Assembly (NCBI GenBank): GCA_951828535.1
Contig: OX639990.1
Span: 979,300-1,043,299, forward strand
Reading direction: 5' to 3'
Length of the DNA stretch: 64,000 nucleotides
DNA from: an uncultured Candidatus Entotheonella sp.
Lineage (GTDB): Bacteria > Tectomicrobia > Entotheonellia > Entotheonellales > Entotheonellaceae
Below the pieces are notes generated by a model that saw nothing but the letters and a program-made list of their open reading frames with translations, had not been told where the DNA came from and ran no database searches. This document shows positions 20,614 through 27,514 of the stretch, one piece after another; position 1 is the stretch's first letter, and every line of letters starts with the position of its first letter. The translations under genes and the position numbers were made by a program.

Positions 20614-20687
20614 GGCTGGGCTCTGGCGGTAACCAGACAGACAGCGGTTCTGACCTCAGGTTTCATCCATCGACGGGAGTTCAAATA

Positions 20688-23600
20688 ATGGATCAAATCA
20701 ACCTCTTTACACGCAACGGGCCTATACCAGACGATCAAGAACGACCCGCTCAACTCAAGTTGATTCGTCCTCCCGGTACACAGGGTTTGCCGAACGTCTA
20801 CGAGCGGACGCTGCAAAATCAGATCAACCTGGGCTTGTCCGCCAATGCTGACCTTAGCGATACCTTCATCGCCGCGCTGCAAGAACTGATTCGCGAAATC
20901 AGAATAACCGGAACCGGCCAGAAACGTTATGAACTTGAGAAGGGTCGTCGCGGTGAGCCAGCGGGAGATGACATTCTCTACCACTTCCCATTTACCGACG
21001 AGGCAGAGCTATTCGAGGAAGCCCAAGTTGAAATCCAGGTCGAAGGTCAGCGCGTCGGAGGGACAATCGTGTCGATTGGAGATGGTCATTTAACTTTGGC
21101 CCTCAAAGAAAACATCGGCGACGAGGTGCGCTTTGCCGTACTCCTGATTGACACGACCGCTTTACTGGAGGTACTCAAGGAAAAAATAGAAGCAGTAAAA
21201 AATGGGGGAATCACGCTCAACCGCGCGCTTGCCGATGCAGTGGTTCGGCCAGGTCAGTTACCGAAACCGCCTGACACTCCAATCCGGGAAGGACTCCCAA
21301 TCGACTCCGACTTGAATGACAATCAGCGAGAAGTGTACGGCAATGCGCTTCGAGAGGCAGTTACCTTTGTTTGGGGTCCCCCAGGCACAGGAAAAACCAA
21401 GACCCTGGGTGAAATCGTACGCTCGGCGTTTGAAGGCCAAGAGCGAACATTGATCTGTTCCAACACGAACAAGGCCGTCGATCAAGTGCTTTATCAAATT
21501 TGTACGGCGCTCGGCCGTGAACATCCGGCCATGGAAGAAGGCAAAGTCGTACGTTTGGGTCGAATTACCGATGATAAGCTCGAGTCAGAATTTCACGATT
21601 ACGTGACGGTTGATGGGATTGTTGAACGTCGCTCGGCTGATCTGAAGTCGCAAAAGCAGACCATTGAGACAGAGATCGCCAAACTCGACGCTGGTACGCT
21701 GAAGGCACGACAAATTCTTGCAAAATTCGCTTCTCTTGACCAAGCGAAACAAAAGCTCATAGCGGAAAAGGAAAACGTTAATCGTATAGAAGGTGACGAC
21801 AGAGATTTGAACGAAGAACTTCTTCGCAATGGTGCGCGTCGGGACCAACTAGCCAAGGAACTGCAACGCCGTCGTAATGCGATTTTCGGGTTCTTTCGCC
21901 GTAAGGTAGAAGAAATCGAGGTCGACCTTGACCACGTCGCCGCTGAGCGCAAACGAATCGAAGACAAAATCGGAGATTTGAAGACACAGTATGCAGCGGT
22001 TCACCGGCGCTTCGAGCAGGCTCAGCGAACCCGCGATGATTGCCAATCCGCGGTCGCTGGCGAAAACAGAACGAACGCACAAACCGTTGTTGATAATGCT
22101 GACCAGCAACGTGCCAATCTGGTGGCTAAATTGAGCGAGGTGGAAGCCAAGATCACAGCACTTCGCCAGACGGTGACAAGGGAGGCTAGAGTTGTCGGGG
22201 CCACCTGTACCAAGACGTATCTTTCCCAGAAGGATATCGGGCATGTTGATCTGGTCATCATTGATGAAGCGTCAATGGTTATGCGACCGATGGCATGGTT
22301 CTCAGCTGGATTGGCGGCGAAACGCGTGGTGGTTTCCGGTGATTTCCGTCAAATTCCGCCCATCGTACAAACCGAAGAGCAAGCCATCTTCGACGCTTTG
22401 GGACGTGATCCGTTTACGGCGGCGGAAAGGGCGGAACCCCATGCTCCGGACCTGATGATACTGACTGAGCAACATAGAATGAGACCGGAGATTTGCAATC
22501 TCATCTCTAAGCCGATGTATGAAAGCAGGCTTGTCACGGCAGCGGGGAGAAAAACAGAACCCGGGCGATTACCTCCAGCGCCGTTTGATAGATCTCTCAC
22601 AATCATTGACACCTCGGCGCTTTCCCCTTTCGAGAGTCAGAATGCCTTCTTTTCGAGATTTAACATGCTCCATGCATTACTCGCGCGAAACCTTGTGTGG
22701 CATTTCCAACAAGAAGCCGTAATAGGCAGTCCCCGTGACCTCAGCATTTGCACACCTTATGCCGCGCAGGCGCGTTTGATCCAGAAACTCCTTGAGGGAG
22801 ATGGCCTCGACGAGTTTGTTCACGCTGGCACAGTACATCGCTTCCAGGGCGACGAACGTCGAATGGTGTTGCTGGAAATTCCCGAAAGCCCTGGTGGATT
22901 TTGGGCGTTAGGCCAGTTCGTTCAAGGCGTGCCACCAACCCATATCGGTGCGCGCCTGATTAACGTTGCCGTTAGCAGAGCACAGGAACATTTGATAGTG
23001 CTTGCTAATTTGACCTACCTCGACAAGCGGTTACCATCATCCTCTCTATTGAGAATCATCCTGCATGATATGGAACAGCATGGTCGCGTTGTTCCGGGGG
23101 AAGAGCTTCTCAAGCTGCGTCCGATTGCAAGCGACTTGGCTGGCTTGGTCGACCAGACAGGCTTTGATGACATAGCCAACAGTCTTGGTATCTTCGATGA
23201 AACGCAGTTCGAGAGGGGACTTGTACACGATATTCAATCCGCCAAAGGAACTGTCGTATTGTTTTCCGGGTACATAACTCCAATGCGCGTCGCCAAGTTG
23301 GGTGACCTCTTGCGTTCAAGAATCTTGAATGGCGTTAAAGTGAGATGCGTTACTCGACCGCCGAGATCAAATGGCACAATCCCGGAAACGGCCGGCCGTG
23401 AGGCAGTCGAGATGCTGAGCAACATCGGAGCTGTTGTCGATTTTCGGGCCAACATCCATCAGAAAGTATGTCTGATCGACAACAGAGTTGTGTGGTGGGG
23501 CTCTCTCAATGCGCTCAGCCATGGGGGGCATGCCGACGAGATGATGACCCGGGCCGTCAACGAGGGATTCGCAAAGACGGTCGCGGCCCACATGTCTAAA

Positions 23601-23771
23601 CGTCCGGTTTCAGCTGAGAGGGCTCAGGCGACCGTGGCGGAGCGAGAGAATCCACTTTGCGAGGATTGTAAGGCGCATTCAGTGTTCAAGGAAGGCCGGT
23701 ACGGACCGTACTTCGAATGCGAGGCACTTTGCGATTGGAGGCGAAGCATGAGAGTGGTGATGAGGCAGTAG
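20688..23771 (+). CDS. SF1 helicase (COG1112/Upf1-like) fused to PLD nuclease; candidate Mokosh type II MkoC
   Basis: This 1027-residue protein has an N-terminal region of about 220 residues. Walker A GPPGTGKT lies near 230, and a long coiled-coil insertion occupies about 310-500. Walker B VIIDEAS is near 525, followed by GDFRQIPPIV, LTEQHRM, TVHRFQGDERR and VAVSRAQEHLIV, a full set of SF1 helicase motifs. Near 922 lies one phospholipase-D motif NIHQKVCLIDNRVVWWGSLN (HxKxxxxD). A Cys-rich end (CEDCKAH ... FECEALCDW) looks like a zinc ribbon. A single protein joining a COG1112 helicase and a PLD domain is the definition of Mokosh type II. Defence function is inferred from architecture and mobile surroundings. 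Base composition looks lower in GC than thrS. Confidence 0.72.
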   Translation: MDQINLFTRNGPIPDDQERPAQLKLIRPPGTQGLPNVYERTLQNQINLGLSANADLSDTFIAALQELIREIRITGTGQKRYELEKGRRGEPAGDDILYHFPFTDEAELFEEAQVEIQVEGQRVGGTIVSIGDGHLTLALKENIGDEVRFAVLLIDTTALLEVLKEKIEAVKNGGITLNRALADAVVRPGQLPKPPDTPIREGLPIDSDLNDNQREVYGNALREAVTFVWGPPGTGKTKTLGEIVRSAFEGQERTLICSNTNKAVDQVLYQICTALGREHPAMEEGKVVRLGRITDDKLESEFHDYVTVDGIVERRSADLKSQKQTIETEIAKLDAGTLKARQILAKFASLDQAKQKLIAEKENVNRIEGDDRDLNEELLRNGARRDQLAKELQRRRNAIFGFFRRKVEEIEVDLDHVAAERKRIEDKIGDLKTQYAAVHRRFEQAQRTRDDCQSAVAGENRTNAQTVVDNADQQRANLVAKLSEVEAKITALRQTVTREARVVGATCTKTYLSQKDIGHVDLVIIDEASMVMRPMAWFSAGLAAKRVVVSGDFRQIPPIVQTEEQAIFDALGRDPFTAAERAEPHAPDLMILTEQHRMRPEICNLISKPMYESRLVTAAGRKTEPGRLPPAPFDRSLTIIDTSALSPFESQNAFFSRFNMLHALLARNLVWHFQQEAVIGSPRDLSICTPYAAQARLIQKLLEGDGLDEFVHAGTVHRFQGDERRMVLLEIPESPGGFWALGQFVQGVPPTHIGARLINVAVSRAQEHLIVLANLTYLDKRLPSSSLLRIILHDMEQHGRVVPGEELLKLRPIASDLAGLVDQTGFDDIANSLGIFDETQFERGLVHDIQSAKGTVVLFSGYITPMRVAKLGDLLRSRILNGVKVRCVTRPPRSNGTIPETAGREAVEMLSNIGAVVDFRANIHQKVCLIDNRVVWWGSLNALSHGGHADEMMTRAVNEGFAKTVAAHMSKRPVSAERAQATVAERENPLCEDCKAHSVFKEGRYGPYFECEALCDWRRSMRVVMRQ

Positions 23772-23935
23772 ACGAACTCTCGCGGACCTTCAGATAAAGG
23801 GCTTCGGCGAACGGGATTTGGCCGAAGAAGGTACACTGTTTGATACTTGTCACGCCATGCTTCTGGCCGTGCCGAGGTGACTGCGACACGCCTTGCCTGG
23901 GACATGAGGCTTTGGTAGAGCACAAGGAGGGAGTC

Positions 23936-24181
23936 ATGGTCCGTACCTATCACGCAGCGATGTCGTGGGATGAGGAAGTGGGAGTCTGGTACGTGTCGGA
24001 CACCGACTTTCCGGGTCTGGTCGCCGAAGCCGGCACGCAGCTAGAATTGGTGTGCAAGATTCACCAACTTGTCCCGGAGTTGTTCGAGGCCAACCGTCAC
24101 CTGTTCGATAAAGCCATACCCGAAACCATACCGTTGCAGTTGACTTCGAGTCGGCTTGAGGCGATCAAATTGGTGGATTGA
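23936..24181 (+). CDS. HicB-like antitoxin (DUF1902 type)
   Basis: The 81-residue protein reads VRTYHAAMSWDEEVGVWYVS, DTDFPGLVAEAGTQLELVCK and FEANRHLFDKAIPE, matching the DUF1902/HicB-like antitoxins. AAGGAGG (23924-23930) lies 5 bases before the ATG. A hicA-like gene begins at its stop codon (TGATG) but is frameshifted and cut short. This protein would be an orphan antitoxin, and it lies 165 bases after the helicase-PLD gene. Confidence 0.78.
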   Translation: MVRTYHAAMSWDEEVGVWYVSDTDFPGLVAEAGTQLELVCKIHQLVPELFEANRHLFDKAIPETIPLQLTSSRLEAIKLVD

Positions 24182-24257
24182 TGGCGAGTTATACGCGCTC
24201 CGTGAAACGGTGTTGAGGAAATCGGGCTGCTACTTCCTTCGCCAGGGACAGTGTTGC
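24181..24257 (+). pseudogene. Frameshifted, truncated hicA toxin remnant
   Basis: From ATG 24181 the frame reads MASYTRSVKRC and stops. The next frame continues with ETVLRKSGCYFLRQGQ, which is the HicA pattern of a helix followed by GCYFxRQGxG. The catalytic His region that should follow is missing, and a transposase fragment begins instead. An indel and a truncation have therefore destroyed the toxin. Confidence 0.6.
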
Positions 24258-24261
24258 CTAT

Positions 24262-24340
24262 GCTGACGGCAACACTCATACCAACACGATTGAGGGTTTC
24301 TGGAGCCTGCTCAAGCGGGCATTGAACGATGTCTACCCAA
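24262..24340 (+). mobile_element. IS1595/ISXO2-like transposase fragment
   Basis: About 26 codons read ADGNTHTNTIEGFWSLLKRA followed by LNDVYP. This matches the end of the DDE domain of IS1595-family transposases, where HTNTIEGFW..LKR is characteristic. No start, no upstream catalytic residues and no terminal repeats are visible, so it is a relic. Confidence 0.65.
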
Positions 24341-24349
24341 GAAACCGCG

Positions 24350-24604
24350 TTACCCCATCTGGAGGAACGCATTGCGCAGTCTTTCAAACGCCTGAGTGAT
24401 CAGCGTAGCTTGGCCTCCGAAAGTCTTCAAAGATTCGTCGCTCAAAGCCGCTTGGCTCGCGGCGTCAAGTCCGGCGAGCATTCCCTCTCTCACACCGCAA
24501 GTGGTGAGGGCGACCACGTCAACACTGACAAGAGCGAGGGAACGAAGCGCAATTAGCTCTGCTTCCATTTTGAGAAGCGCCTGTTCAAGTTCTTCCATGT
24601 TCAT
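24350..24604 (-). CDS. Hypothetical small helical protein
   Basis: An 84-residue protein of unknown family starts MNMEELEQALLKMEAELIAL and continues LKTFGGQATLITQAFERLRN. The composition and a heptad-like pattern suggest helices. AAGGGA lies about 8 bases before the ATG. The IS3 element ends only 15 bases upstream, so its native promoter has probably been displaced. It could be a chance frame, but the codon pattern looks genuine. Confidence 0.45.
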   Translation of the reverse strand: MNMEELEQALLKMEAELIALRSLALVSVDVVALTTCGVREGMLAGLDAASQAALSDESLKTFGGQATLITQAFERLRNAFLQMG

Positions 24605-24660
24605 ACAGACTTCCCTTTCTGGAGTTGCCCCGTTTCCGTGGACAGTTGATAGCTTGGCAT

Positions 24661-25509
24661 TTAAGCAGCTTGTTGATGGCTCCTCTCGAAGTTTAGTGGC
24701 GACAGGTAGCCGAGGCCAGAGTGACGACGGTGTGGGTTGTACCAGCCTTCTATGTATTCGAAGATCGCCATGCGGGCCTCAGCTTGGGTACGGAATACGC
24801 GCCGGTCAATGAATTCGCATTCAAGGGTGGCGAAGAAACTTTCCGCCATAGCGTTGTCAAAACAGTCACCTACCGAACCCATGGACGGCGCGACGCCCAT
24901 CTCTCGGCAGCGTTTCCCGAACGCGTAGGACGTATATTGGCTACCTTGATCGCTGTGATGAACGACGCTGCCTGGACGGCGTTGCCACAGCGCCATGTTC
25001 AGCGCCTCGAGCACCAGCTCGGTGCGCAGGTGATTGGCCATCGACCAGCCCACAACCCGCCGGCTGAAGGCGTCGACGACGACCGCCAGAAACAGGAATC
25101 CGGCCCAGGTCGGCACGTAGGTGATATCGGCCACCCACAGAAGGTCAGGTGCATCGGCTTCGAACCTGCGCTCAACGAGGTCTGGAGCTGGACGAAGCCT
25201 GTGGTCGCGGCGCGTGGTGCGTGTTCCCTTGCGTCTGGATACCCCGACCAGGCTCATCTCTCGCATCAACCTGGCCACGCGCTTGCGACCGATATGGATA
25301 CCGTCGGCGGCAAGCTCGGCGTGAATTCGAGGTGCTCCGTAAGTGCCGCGGCTGCGATGATGGATGTTGCTGATGCAAGCCTTGAGGACAGCATCGTATT
25401 GCTGGCGAGGCGACAACTCACGGTCTCGCCAGGCGTAGTACCCGCTCGGGGAGACGCCGAGCAAACGGGCCACCTTGGCGATGGGGTAACGGGCCTGATT
25501 CGCTCTCAT
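24661..25509 (-). CDS. IS3-family transposase OrfB
   Basis: The 282-residue DDE integrase-core transposase contains an HTH_21 region (RYPIAKVARLLGVSPSGYYA, GTYGAPRIHAELAADGIHIG). The catalytic domain has DLLWVADITYVPTWAGFLFL (first Asp), HHSDQGSQYTS (second Asp) and DNAMAESFFATLECEFI (Glu). It ends in the usual YNPHRRHSGLGYLSP. The start overlaps the orfA stop (ATGA). A fused OrfAB could form by minus-one slippage near GCAAAG upstream of the overlap. Confidence 0.95.
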   Translation of the reverse strand: MRANQARYPIAKVARLLGVSPSGYYAWRDRELSPRQQYDAVLKACISNIHHRSRGTYGAPRIHAELAADGIHIGRKRVARLMREMSLVGVSRRKGTRTTRRDHRLRPAPDLVERRFEADAPDLLWVADITYVPTWAGFLFLAVVVDAFSRRVVGWSMANHLRTELVLEALNMALWQRRPGSVVHHSDQGSQYTSYAFGKRCREMGVAPSMGSVGDCFDNAMAESFFATLECEFIDRRVFRTQAEARMAIFEYIEGWYNPHRRHSGLGYLSPLNFERSHQQAA

Positions 25510-25820
25510 GAACTCGAAGGCTTTGCGGGTACCGAGCCGGTCTCCCGAGCAAACCAGGCCGTGGCTTTTGCCAGTATCTCGCGCTCAAGACGCAACTGAC
25601 GGTTTTCACGGCGTAGGCGGCGAAGCTCATCGCGATCGTCGCTCATCAGGCCGTCGTCACGGCGGCCTTCGTCGAGGTCGGCCTGGCGGACCCACTTGCG
25701 GATGGTCTCCGCACAGCATTCGAAGTCGCGGGCCAGTTCCGTAGCAGATCTACCTGAGCGAACCAGCTCCACCATCTGGTGGCGAAACTCAGGCGGGTAT
25801 GCGGGACGTGTTCGTGGCAT
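25506..25820 (-). CDS. IS3-family transposase OrfA
   Basis: The 104-residue protein carries the helix-turn-helix of IS3 OrfA (PPEFRHQMVELVRSGRSATE, LARDFECCAETIRKWVRQAD). A Leu-zipper-like helix, ELRRLRRENRQLRLEREILA, ends in KATAWFA. It binds the element ends and regulates OrfB. The stop overlaps the OrfB start by 4 bases. Confidence 0.93.
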   Translation of the reverse strand: MPRTRPAYPPEFRHQMVELVRSGRSATELARDFECCAETIRKWVRQADLDEGRRDDGLMSDDRDELRRLRRENRQLRLEREILAKATAWFARETGSVPAKPSSS

Positions 25821-25922
25821 CGTGGATTCCTCCTCCCAAAAGGATTAGGTATCCACGAAAGCGGGTCAACTCCATTCATCAATGGGGATGCCCGTGCAAC
25901 GAGCATCCCCTAGCGAATTTGC

Positions 25923-26309
25923 TTACTGCCCCAGGGACTCCAGCATGTTGGAGCAAAAGCGGTTGTACTTCGCGCAGTTCGCCCAGTAGTTGCGCTCGAT
26001 GGCACGATTGCCGCGCTCAATCTCCCTCACCTTCCACTCCGGCATGTGAAAATCTCGCGTGTAATCCCGCCAGTCCACGGGGGGCCGCTGCGGCGGCTGT
26101 GTCCTGTAGGACGGCATCAGCACCTGATAGGACGGTGGCGGTGGGGTGTACGACGGGATAGTGGGCAGGCTGTATGTTGGCACCGGCGTATAGTGCGGTA
26201 CTGCTGGCATCAGTCCCGTGTTGTTGGGGTCATACTGGCTTTGCGACAAGCCGAGAGCGGGAAAAACCACGCCAACAGCCATTGCGAAAATGAGGACGTT
26301 ACGCTTCAT
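25923..26309 (-). CDS. Hypothetical secreted Pro/Tyr-rich protein
   Basis: This 128-residue protein starts MKRNVLIFAMAVGVVFPALG, a Sec signal peptide. A low-complexity segment rich in Pro, Tyr, Ser and Thr follows (VPTYSLPTIPSYTPPPPSYQ), then a charged C-terminal part with two Cys (YWANCAKYNRFCSNMLESL). The ATG at 26309 has GAGGAG about 6 bases upstream, so it replaces the longer start at 26339. The family is unknown. It is probably periplasmic or surface-exposed and lies just beyond the IS3 element. Confidence 0.6.
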   Translation of the reverse strand: MKRNVLIFAMAVGVVFPALGLSQSQYDPNNTGLMPAVPHYTPVPTYSLPTIPSYTPPPPSYQVLMPSYRTQPPQRPPVDWRDYTRDFHMPEWKVREIERGNRAIERNYWANCAKYNRFCSNMLESLGQ

Positions 26310-26686
26310 GGGCTTCTCCTCGTTTGCAATGAGAGTCATTCAAGGTGTGGATATTCGCAACGACCGGACCATCTACGTTCTCCATAGAGCGGTTTTCGTA
26401 TGACTATATGGGATGCCCGCAATAGGCAAACCAAATCCGACTTATCCGATGCCGTAACAAACCGGACATGCGAATGTAAACCGCTATAAGGACAGCCGCG
26501 TTACGCTTAACGGCGTCTCTGCCGAGAGCTGGGTCGCCTTGACATCCGCATCGTACGGGAAAGGTACGCGCCGCTTAATCTTGGCAGCCGTGAGAGGGAG
26601 ATACATCGGCGAAATTTCCACTTTGGACAGAGACCGGATAAGGAGTCGACCGCCTCAAAAGTCAAATGGATTCTCCCGTGAGGCCC
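26310..26686. other. 377-bp intergenic region without a recognised gene
   Basis: The region lies between the atpB stop and the start of the secreted hypothetical gene, both on the minus strand. Frames here are short and show no family resemblance. In particular there is no atpE (c-subunit) gene, although atpE normally follows atpB. Confidence 0.55.
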
Positions 26687-27514
26687 TTAATGCTGCGGAT
26701 GGATAGACATGCCCATGAACAGGGACGTAAGCAGGGTGAAAATATAGGCTTGCAGGAAGGCGATGAACACTTCCAGCAGGTTGATGAACAGGGCAAAGCC
26801 GACGGCGACGGGGGAGATCAGGAAGCTTTCGAAAATAAAGATCATGCTGATAAAGGAGAGGATGACGATGTGCCCCGCCGTCATATTGGCATAGAGACGA
26901 ACGCACAGGGCAAAGGGCTTGGTGAACTGGCCGAGAATCTCGACCGGGAGCATGATGGGCAGGAGCCACACGGGCAGGCCGTGCGGCACCAAGTTCTGCA
27001 GGTGGTGCTTGAGGCCGTGCTCTTTAATGCCGCTTAATTGAATCATGGTCAGCGCGATGAGCGCCAGCGCCGCGGTGACGGTGATGTTACCGGTGGCCGT
27101 GGCGCCGTAGGGAATGAGCCCTAAGAGATTGCAGAACAGAATGAAGAAGAACGTTGTCAACAGGAAAGGCAGGTAACGCCGACCGGCCTCGCCTGTATTC
27201 GGCAAGATGACCTCATCCCGCAGGTAAACCACGAGAGCCTCTAGCATGTTGGCGATGCCACTGGGCACCGCGGCCTGACGGCGGAAAGCGAGCCGAAACA
27301 CGGCAACTAGCAAGACCGAAGCAATCCACATCATGACAAGATGCTTGGTAATTGAAAAATCGATTCCAAAGAGATGTATTTCCGGCAATGGCAAGTGCCC
27401 CAGAGGCCACAGATCGAATTCGTGCGAGTCCTGCACGTGGTGCAGGATCGTTTCGCCGATGCTGTGCTCCTCGCCGTGGCCGCCGCCTTCGGTGGCAGCG
27501 TAAGCAATTCCCAT
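26687..27514 (-). CDS. atpB: F0F1 ATP synthase subunit a
   Basis: The 275-residue integral membrane protein forms the proton half-channels beside the c-ring. The essential Arg lies in KPFALCVRLYANMTAGH near residue 205, and several hydrophobic helices are visible. The N-terminal extension is His-rich (GGGHGEEHSIGETILHHVQD). The ATG at 27514 has GAGGAG 8 bases upstream and is preferred to GTG at 27520. atpI precedes it by 12 bases. The c, b, delta and F1 genes are not in the window. Confidence 0.95.
   Translation of the reverse strand: MGIAYAATEGGGHGEEHSIGETILHHVQDSHEFDLWPLGHLPLPEIHLFGIDFSITKHLVMMWIASVLLVAVFRLAFRRQAAVPSGIANMLEALVVYLRDEVILPNTGEAGRRYLPFLLTTFFFILFCNLLGLIPYGATATGNITVTAALALIALTMIQLSGIKEHGLKHHLQNLVPHGLPVWLLPIMLPVEILGQFTKPFALCVRLYANMTAGHIVILSFISMIFIFESFLISPVAVGFALFINLLEVFIAFLQAYIFTLLTSLFMGMSIHPQH

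Follow-up and report, generated by a model that had tools for sequence, protein, structure and literature searches.

The window, a 64,000 nt stretch from an uncultured Candidatus Entotheonella sp. (contig OX639990.1, positions 979,300 to 1,043,299), carries just beyond thrS a long reading frame that joins a helicase to a phospholipase D (PLD) domain. A first-pass annotation had proposed the product as a candidate Mokosh type II anti-phage protein, and the locus raises the question of whether the gene belongs to that system, to a related one, or to something with no part in defence. The gene and the parts of its product are as follows.

20688-23771, + strand: fusion protein of 1027 aa, SF1 (UPF1-like) helicase, single-HKD PLD and Cys4 element (intact ORF, Pfam, AlphaFold, Foldseek)
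20853-21287, + strand: OB-fold with stalk, part of the UPF1-like helicase (residues 56-200) and shared across the family (AlphaFold strands 78-155, flanking helices 56-74 and 157-186; Foldseek matches to IGHMBP2/UPF1/SETX)
21372-21398, + strand: Walker A, residues 229-237 (WGPPGTGK invariant in 38 family members)
21636-22184, + strand: insertion forming a coiled coil, residues 317-499, after Walker A and before motif II (long model helices; conserved length)
22263-22274, + strand: motif II, DEAS, residues 526-529 (D and E invariant in the 38-sequence alignment)
22845-22979, + strand: helicase motifs V/VI, Q720-G721 to R764 (invariant in 38 members)
23184-23594, + strand: predicted PLD nuclease domain, residues 833-969, with HKD at 924-931 and GSxN at 938-941 (PLDc_2; each catalytic residue present in 36-38 of the 38 aligned members)
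23658-23732, + strand: C-terminal four-Cys element, zinc-ribbon-like (C991, C994, C1011 and C1015; AlphaFold model, alignment)

The ORF is uninterrupted from the ATG at 20688 to the stop at 23771, and a plausible ribosome-binding site (GGGAG) lies 8 nt 5′ of the start. Pfam models AAA_11 (117 bits), AAA_12 (77 bits) and PLDc_2 (41 bits, residues 845-970) all match above their gathering cut-offs. The SF1 motifs and the long coiled coil between Walker A and B, both noticed at first reading, are borne out by these matches, by predicted helices at 317-397, 404-455 and 461-499, and by a spacing of ~280 residues between Walker A and motif II (family median 283). The AlphaFold model (mean pLDDT 85.9, pTM 0.71) supports the layout of OB-fold, coiled coil, helicase and PLD; together with the alignment it places a disordered segment at residues 1-40, Walker A in RecA lobe 1, and RecA lobe 2 up to about residue 800. 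By Foldseek, the helicase part matches structures of SETX, IGHMBP2 and UPF1, including several with RNA bound. The single HxKxxxxD motif expected near residue 922 is HQKVCLID at 924-931, followed by GSLN at 938-941, so that H924, K926, D931, G938, S939 and N941 are all intact. The Cys-rich end was also correctly seen, its four cysteines being kept in 23-29 of 38 relatives, and the four-Cys end is missing from most actinobacterial members. The N-terminal 220 residues had been thought possibly lineage-specific. This does not hold for residues 56-200, where the OB-fold and stalk are family-wide; little conservation is seen only in the first ~50 residues, which are disordered.

The gene lies in a stretch that varies between genomes of the genus, and this stretch contains two further features.

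20622-26690, no strand: variable stretch from thrS to atpB, absent at the matching site of the congener (alignment with contig L118 of genome G001 stops at 20621 and starts again at 26691)
23840-24181, + strand: ORF with a DUF1902 (HicB-antitoxin-like) domain (PF08972, 46 bits)
24661-25820, - strand: IS3-type transposase pair (rve, HTH_21, HTH_Tnp_1)

Identity to the congener is 91% up to the first breakpoint, which falls 8 bases past the thrS stop, and ~90% again from the second, at the atpB end. The thrS-atpB interval holds unrelated DNA in the two congeners, 6.07 kb here versus ~4 kb there, and the helicase-PLD gene was not found in the second genome of the genus. The gene is on its own between thrS and mobile remnants, as first described, the latter being here the variable stretch with its IS3-type pair, and its base composition is indeed lower in GC than that of thrS (52.6%, GC3 0.545, vs 60.3%, GC3 0.804). 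From its absence at the congener's site and its lower GC, the gene is horizontally acquired. The remark that infC would be expected in its place was mistaken. In this genome infC lies ~1.5 Mb away, and in the congener it is also far from thrS, so its absence beside thrS carries no signal; a replacement of infC by the helicase-PLD gene was considered and is ruled out by the separation of the two genes in both genomes.

Within the congener's thrS-atpB interval there is a degenerate duplicate of the 3′ end of thrS (L118:9742-10012; 74% nt identity, residues 518-601, one internal stop), adjoining a ParA-like ATPase gene. Because of this copy, the end of thrS is suggested to be a repeated insertion site in the genus. 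In the window itself, inspection by eye of 24260-24330 revealed NTIEGFWSLLKRA, a remnant similar to the terminal part of an ISXO2/IS1595-type transposase, beside the IS3 pair. No HicA toxin partner was recognised for the HicB-like ORF at 23840-24181.

Relatives of the protein were sought in 84,980 species genomes, giving 538 stretches confirmed by tblastn, from which 80 loci were kept, many of them full length. They come from Thermodesulfobacteriota, Chloroflexota, Bacillota, Actinomycetota, Planctomycetota, Verrucomicrobiota, candidate phyla and one Bathyarchaeota contig. The best relative (L024) shows 43% identity across residues 550-1027, its gene being split over two frames, and the nearest intact relatives, from Geobacteraceae (L014-L016), show ~36%. 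Conservation of the predicted active site is strong: K926, G938 and N941 are invariant in 38 members, H924 and D931 are present in 37 and S939 in 36, and of 72 long family members at least 67 have the full HxKx4Dx6GSxN motif. The family is an old one, distributed over many phyla, that has retained its catalytic residues. A scan of viral contigs made with the helicase-PLD protein alone found no relative, and phage records gave partial helicase matches only.

Two plasmid-borne members differ. Those of Aulosira laxa (L011) and Cytobacillus (L108) keep the helicase and have lost the HKD, the PLD domain of the former being degraded; their sequences suggest a nuclease-dead or recruited form. The Aulosira plasmid homologues without an HKD show that members of the family can lose the nuclease site.

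Mokosh type II has been defined, as quoted in PMC11672841, as a COG1112-type helicase and a PLD domain in one protein. With AAA_11, AAA_12 and PLDc_2 in one chain, the protein satisfies this verbal definition, and like MkoC it is a single protein with an N-terminal UPF1-like SF1 helicase and a C-terminal single-HKD PLD. If it were an MkoC, then the MkoC profile of PADLOC might be expected to match it from end to end. Such a match was looked for and not found: the profile gives 150 bits in three pieces, the best stretch being profile positions 771-1104 of 1136, whereas MkoCs recognised by the PADLOC model score 698, 1240 and 1414 bits with nearly the whole profile covered, and a PLD-less IGHMBP2-type helicase already scores 126. 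All 38 family members match both the MkoA and MkoC models (best MkoC E-value 2.8e-54); in the four scanned individually the match is confined to the C-terminal half of MkoC. The proposed comparison with profiles thus divides, PLDc_2 being confirmed and MkoC membership not.

Trees were built from the helicase core, an earlier whole-protein tree having given long-branch warnings. With 32 rows, the family, MkoC and MkoA form three separate clades, each at 100/100, and a 99/95 branch puts MkoA and the IGHMBP2-type helicases on the family's side, away from MkoC. A tree constrained to unite the family with MkoC is worse by 8.2 log units (AU p 0.025), a weak rejection from a test run after the earlier tree had been seen. 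A Cytobacillus protein first taken for an IGHMBP2 outgroup falls inside the family clade, has no clean HKD, and was relabelled accordingly.

These results bear on the possibility that the protein is a divergent true MkoC, both families having descended from one ancestral helicase-PLD fusion. Their domain order is identical, the MkoC profile match spans helicase and PLD, and a profile-profile alignment of the two families is collinear over both domains, from motif II through the PLD HKD (probability 100, E 1.7e-44). Against common descent of the fusion stand the low and partial score, close to that of the PLD-less helicase, the separate clades with the 99/95 branch and the AU result, the 250-300 N-terminal residues of MkoC that find no match in the protein, and the weak cross-scoring of PLD models (12 bits on an MkoC-PLD model vs ~255 for the three MkoC rows used to train it). 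Such a descent is considered unlikely. On the evidence of sequence, the protein is Mokosh type II in layout and of a different family, with its own helicase clade and PLD family and, in the protein studied here, a Cys4 C-terminus. The proposal of a candidate Mokosh type II protein therefore stands for the architecture, and for defence as the best functional reading, but not for membership of the MkoC family.

Mokosh type I is also distinct. Its MkoA has a related helicase core (the MkoA model gives 201 bits here), but type I consists of two genes, MkoA with a kinase-like part and MkoB, and its helicase falls in a distinct clade; no separate helicase-kinase and PLD genes were found at this locus, where the PLD is in cis and the variable stretch holds no partner gene. 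Since a PLD-less IGHMBP2-type helicase reaches 298 bits on MkoA, above the score of the helicase-PLD protein, partial matches to MkoC or MkoA should not be counted as Mokosh. The family is thus separate from Mokosh type II and, as far as found, undescribed, with Mokosh providing the precedent for a helicase-PLD kind of defence. A literature search, to which subscription journals were mostly closed, found no description of it, and for the name PLuB only unrelated matches were present among those listed.

Several relatives lie beside known defence genes. L045 adjoins DISARM genes DrmA (951 bits) and DrmB (241 bits), and L046, L057 and L059 have homologous neighbours; L070 adjoins GajA of Gabija (727 bits), L076 a type III restriction enzyme of a type III RM system (633 bits), L093 BrxD (155 bits), and L037 an AriAB/OLD-type protein. 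Among the closest relatives, an Mrr-type endonuclease is encoded immediately upstream in L015 and a resolvase upstream in L016, and the neighbours of L024 include a Fic protein and one with DUF4357. Scans of neighbours at 1e-20 matched 110 defence models with 112 proteins and 78 with 127, against 23 with 93 control proteins from arbitrary stretches of other genomes, but the counts are of models, not proteins, and the control is small. Most control matches were either generic cross-matches or to CARF-type and Cas12f/TnpB-type models that had a single member apiece, and the list for the relatives is probably too long owing to RecD2- and UvrD-like neighbours (L014, L041). Given that models were counted and that many relatives' loci have ordinary neighbours, the scan is support for a defence role rather than a measured enrichment. 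In its own genome, no defence neighbour was identified beside the helicase-PLD gene.

DISARM itself has a PLD protein, DrmC, and its genes adjoin some relatives, but DrmC is a small separate protein and its model gives only 15 bits here.

The gene is best explained as encoding a stand-alone, horizontally acquired defence protein against phages or mobile elements, a reading to which a probability of about two in three is given, the activity being predicted from sequence. It draws on the helicase and the HKD/GSxN motifs, all conserved in members from many bacterial phyla and from one archaeal contig, and on the patchy distribution, the defence-gene neighbours of relatives, the absence at the congener's site and the lower GC. 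The best reading within this is of a sister kind to Mokosh type II, a helicase-nuclease that would act without a partner.

The fold also resembles that of UPF1 and IGHMBP2, ordinary PLD-less relatives are present in other genomes and several loci have ordinary neighbours, all of which would suit an accessory enzyme of repair or RNA surveillance, belonging to the host or to mobile elements, with no defence role. Although the helicase fold is held in common with IGHMBP2, UPF1 and SETX, these lack the PLD, and the IGHMBP2 model TIGR00376 gives the protein 147 bits, under its NCBIfam cut-off of 349. A DNA-repair helicase in a conserved chromosomal context was not what was found: the gene sits at a variable site, and its relatives occur in only 2 of 48 genomes of the family Geobacteraceae (that of L014) and 7 of 40 of the genus Nocardiopsis (that of L044). 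With this patchy presence, horizontal acquisition, a fused nuclease whose active-site motif is intact, and recurring defence neighbours, a role confined to repair or surveillance seems less likely still than descent from MkoC.

Comparable in design is CnuH of the type II and III CoCoNuTs, a UPF1-like helicase with an OB-fold and a coiled-coil helical insertion after Walker A, which has McrBC-like partners CnuB and CnuC and usually a separate effector, CnuE, and to which a nuclease is fused in type III-B (PMC11090510). The OB-fold and the position of the coiled coil are shared, as compared by published description, and TerY/STK_OB models match among actinobacterial neighbours. The protein could then be the helicase-effector of a larger CoCoNuT-like system, its nuclease in cis replacing CnuE. 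This is very improbable: no partners of the CnuB, CnuC or CnuE kind were found beside the gene, no McrB-like GTPase or McrC homologue was recognised in the adjacent ORFs, a Pfam scan of the variable stretch or the relatives' neighbours, which were inspected in part, and the recurrent neighbours form no single conserved operon.

A scheme can be drawn for how a defence protein of this design might work. UPF1-like SF1 helicases travel 5′ to 3′ along single-stranded RNA or DNA, and throughout the PLD superfamily catalysis requires two HKD motifs. From the fold and the intact motifs, the UPF1-like motor (OB-fold, stalk and two RecA lobes) would load on single-stranded RNA or DNA and translocate with ATP. 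The long coiled coil may serve in dimerisation, in sensing the engaged state, or both. Because PLD catalysis needs two HKD motifs, two protomers would pair their single HKDs into one PLD active site, which would then cut the phage nucleic acid held by the motor, and the Cys4 element may add grip on the substrate. Somewhat short of an even chance is the fuller proposal that this is a widespread single-protein anti-phage family, separate from Mokosh type II, whose helicase-PLD design evolved on its own and whose coiled coil links the UPF1-like motor with a PLD nuclease acting as a dimer. A confirmed defence role would add to the helicase-nuclease defences a large family that PADLOC matches only in part as MkoA/MkoC, and would indicate more than one instance of the helicase-PLD pairing arising or persisting.

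Two other loci came to light. A plasmid of Pseudorhizobium flavum (L138:1999-11470) carries a Mokosh type I-like pair, a 1607-aa AAA protein and a 496-aa protein, with genes for patatin-like phospholipase, nucleotidyltransferase and AbiH on its flanks, the whole being a dense defence island. The window's own genome encodes, at ~2.34 Mb (L121:5487-8903), a further UPF1-like helicase, this one RNase_H_2/RecB-like (TM0106-type); directly adjoining it, at L121:8934-10052, is a gene that by eye is a patatin-like phospholipase resembling CapV of CBASS.
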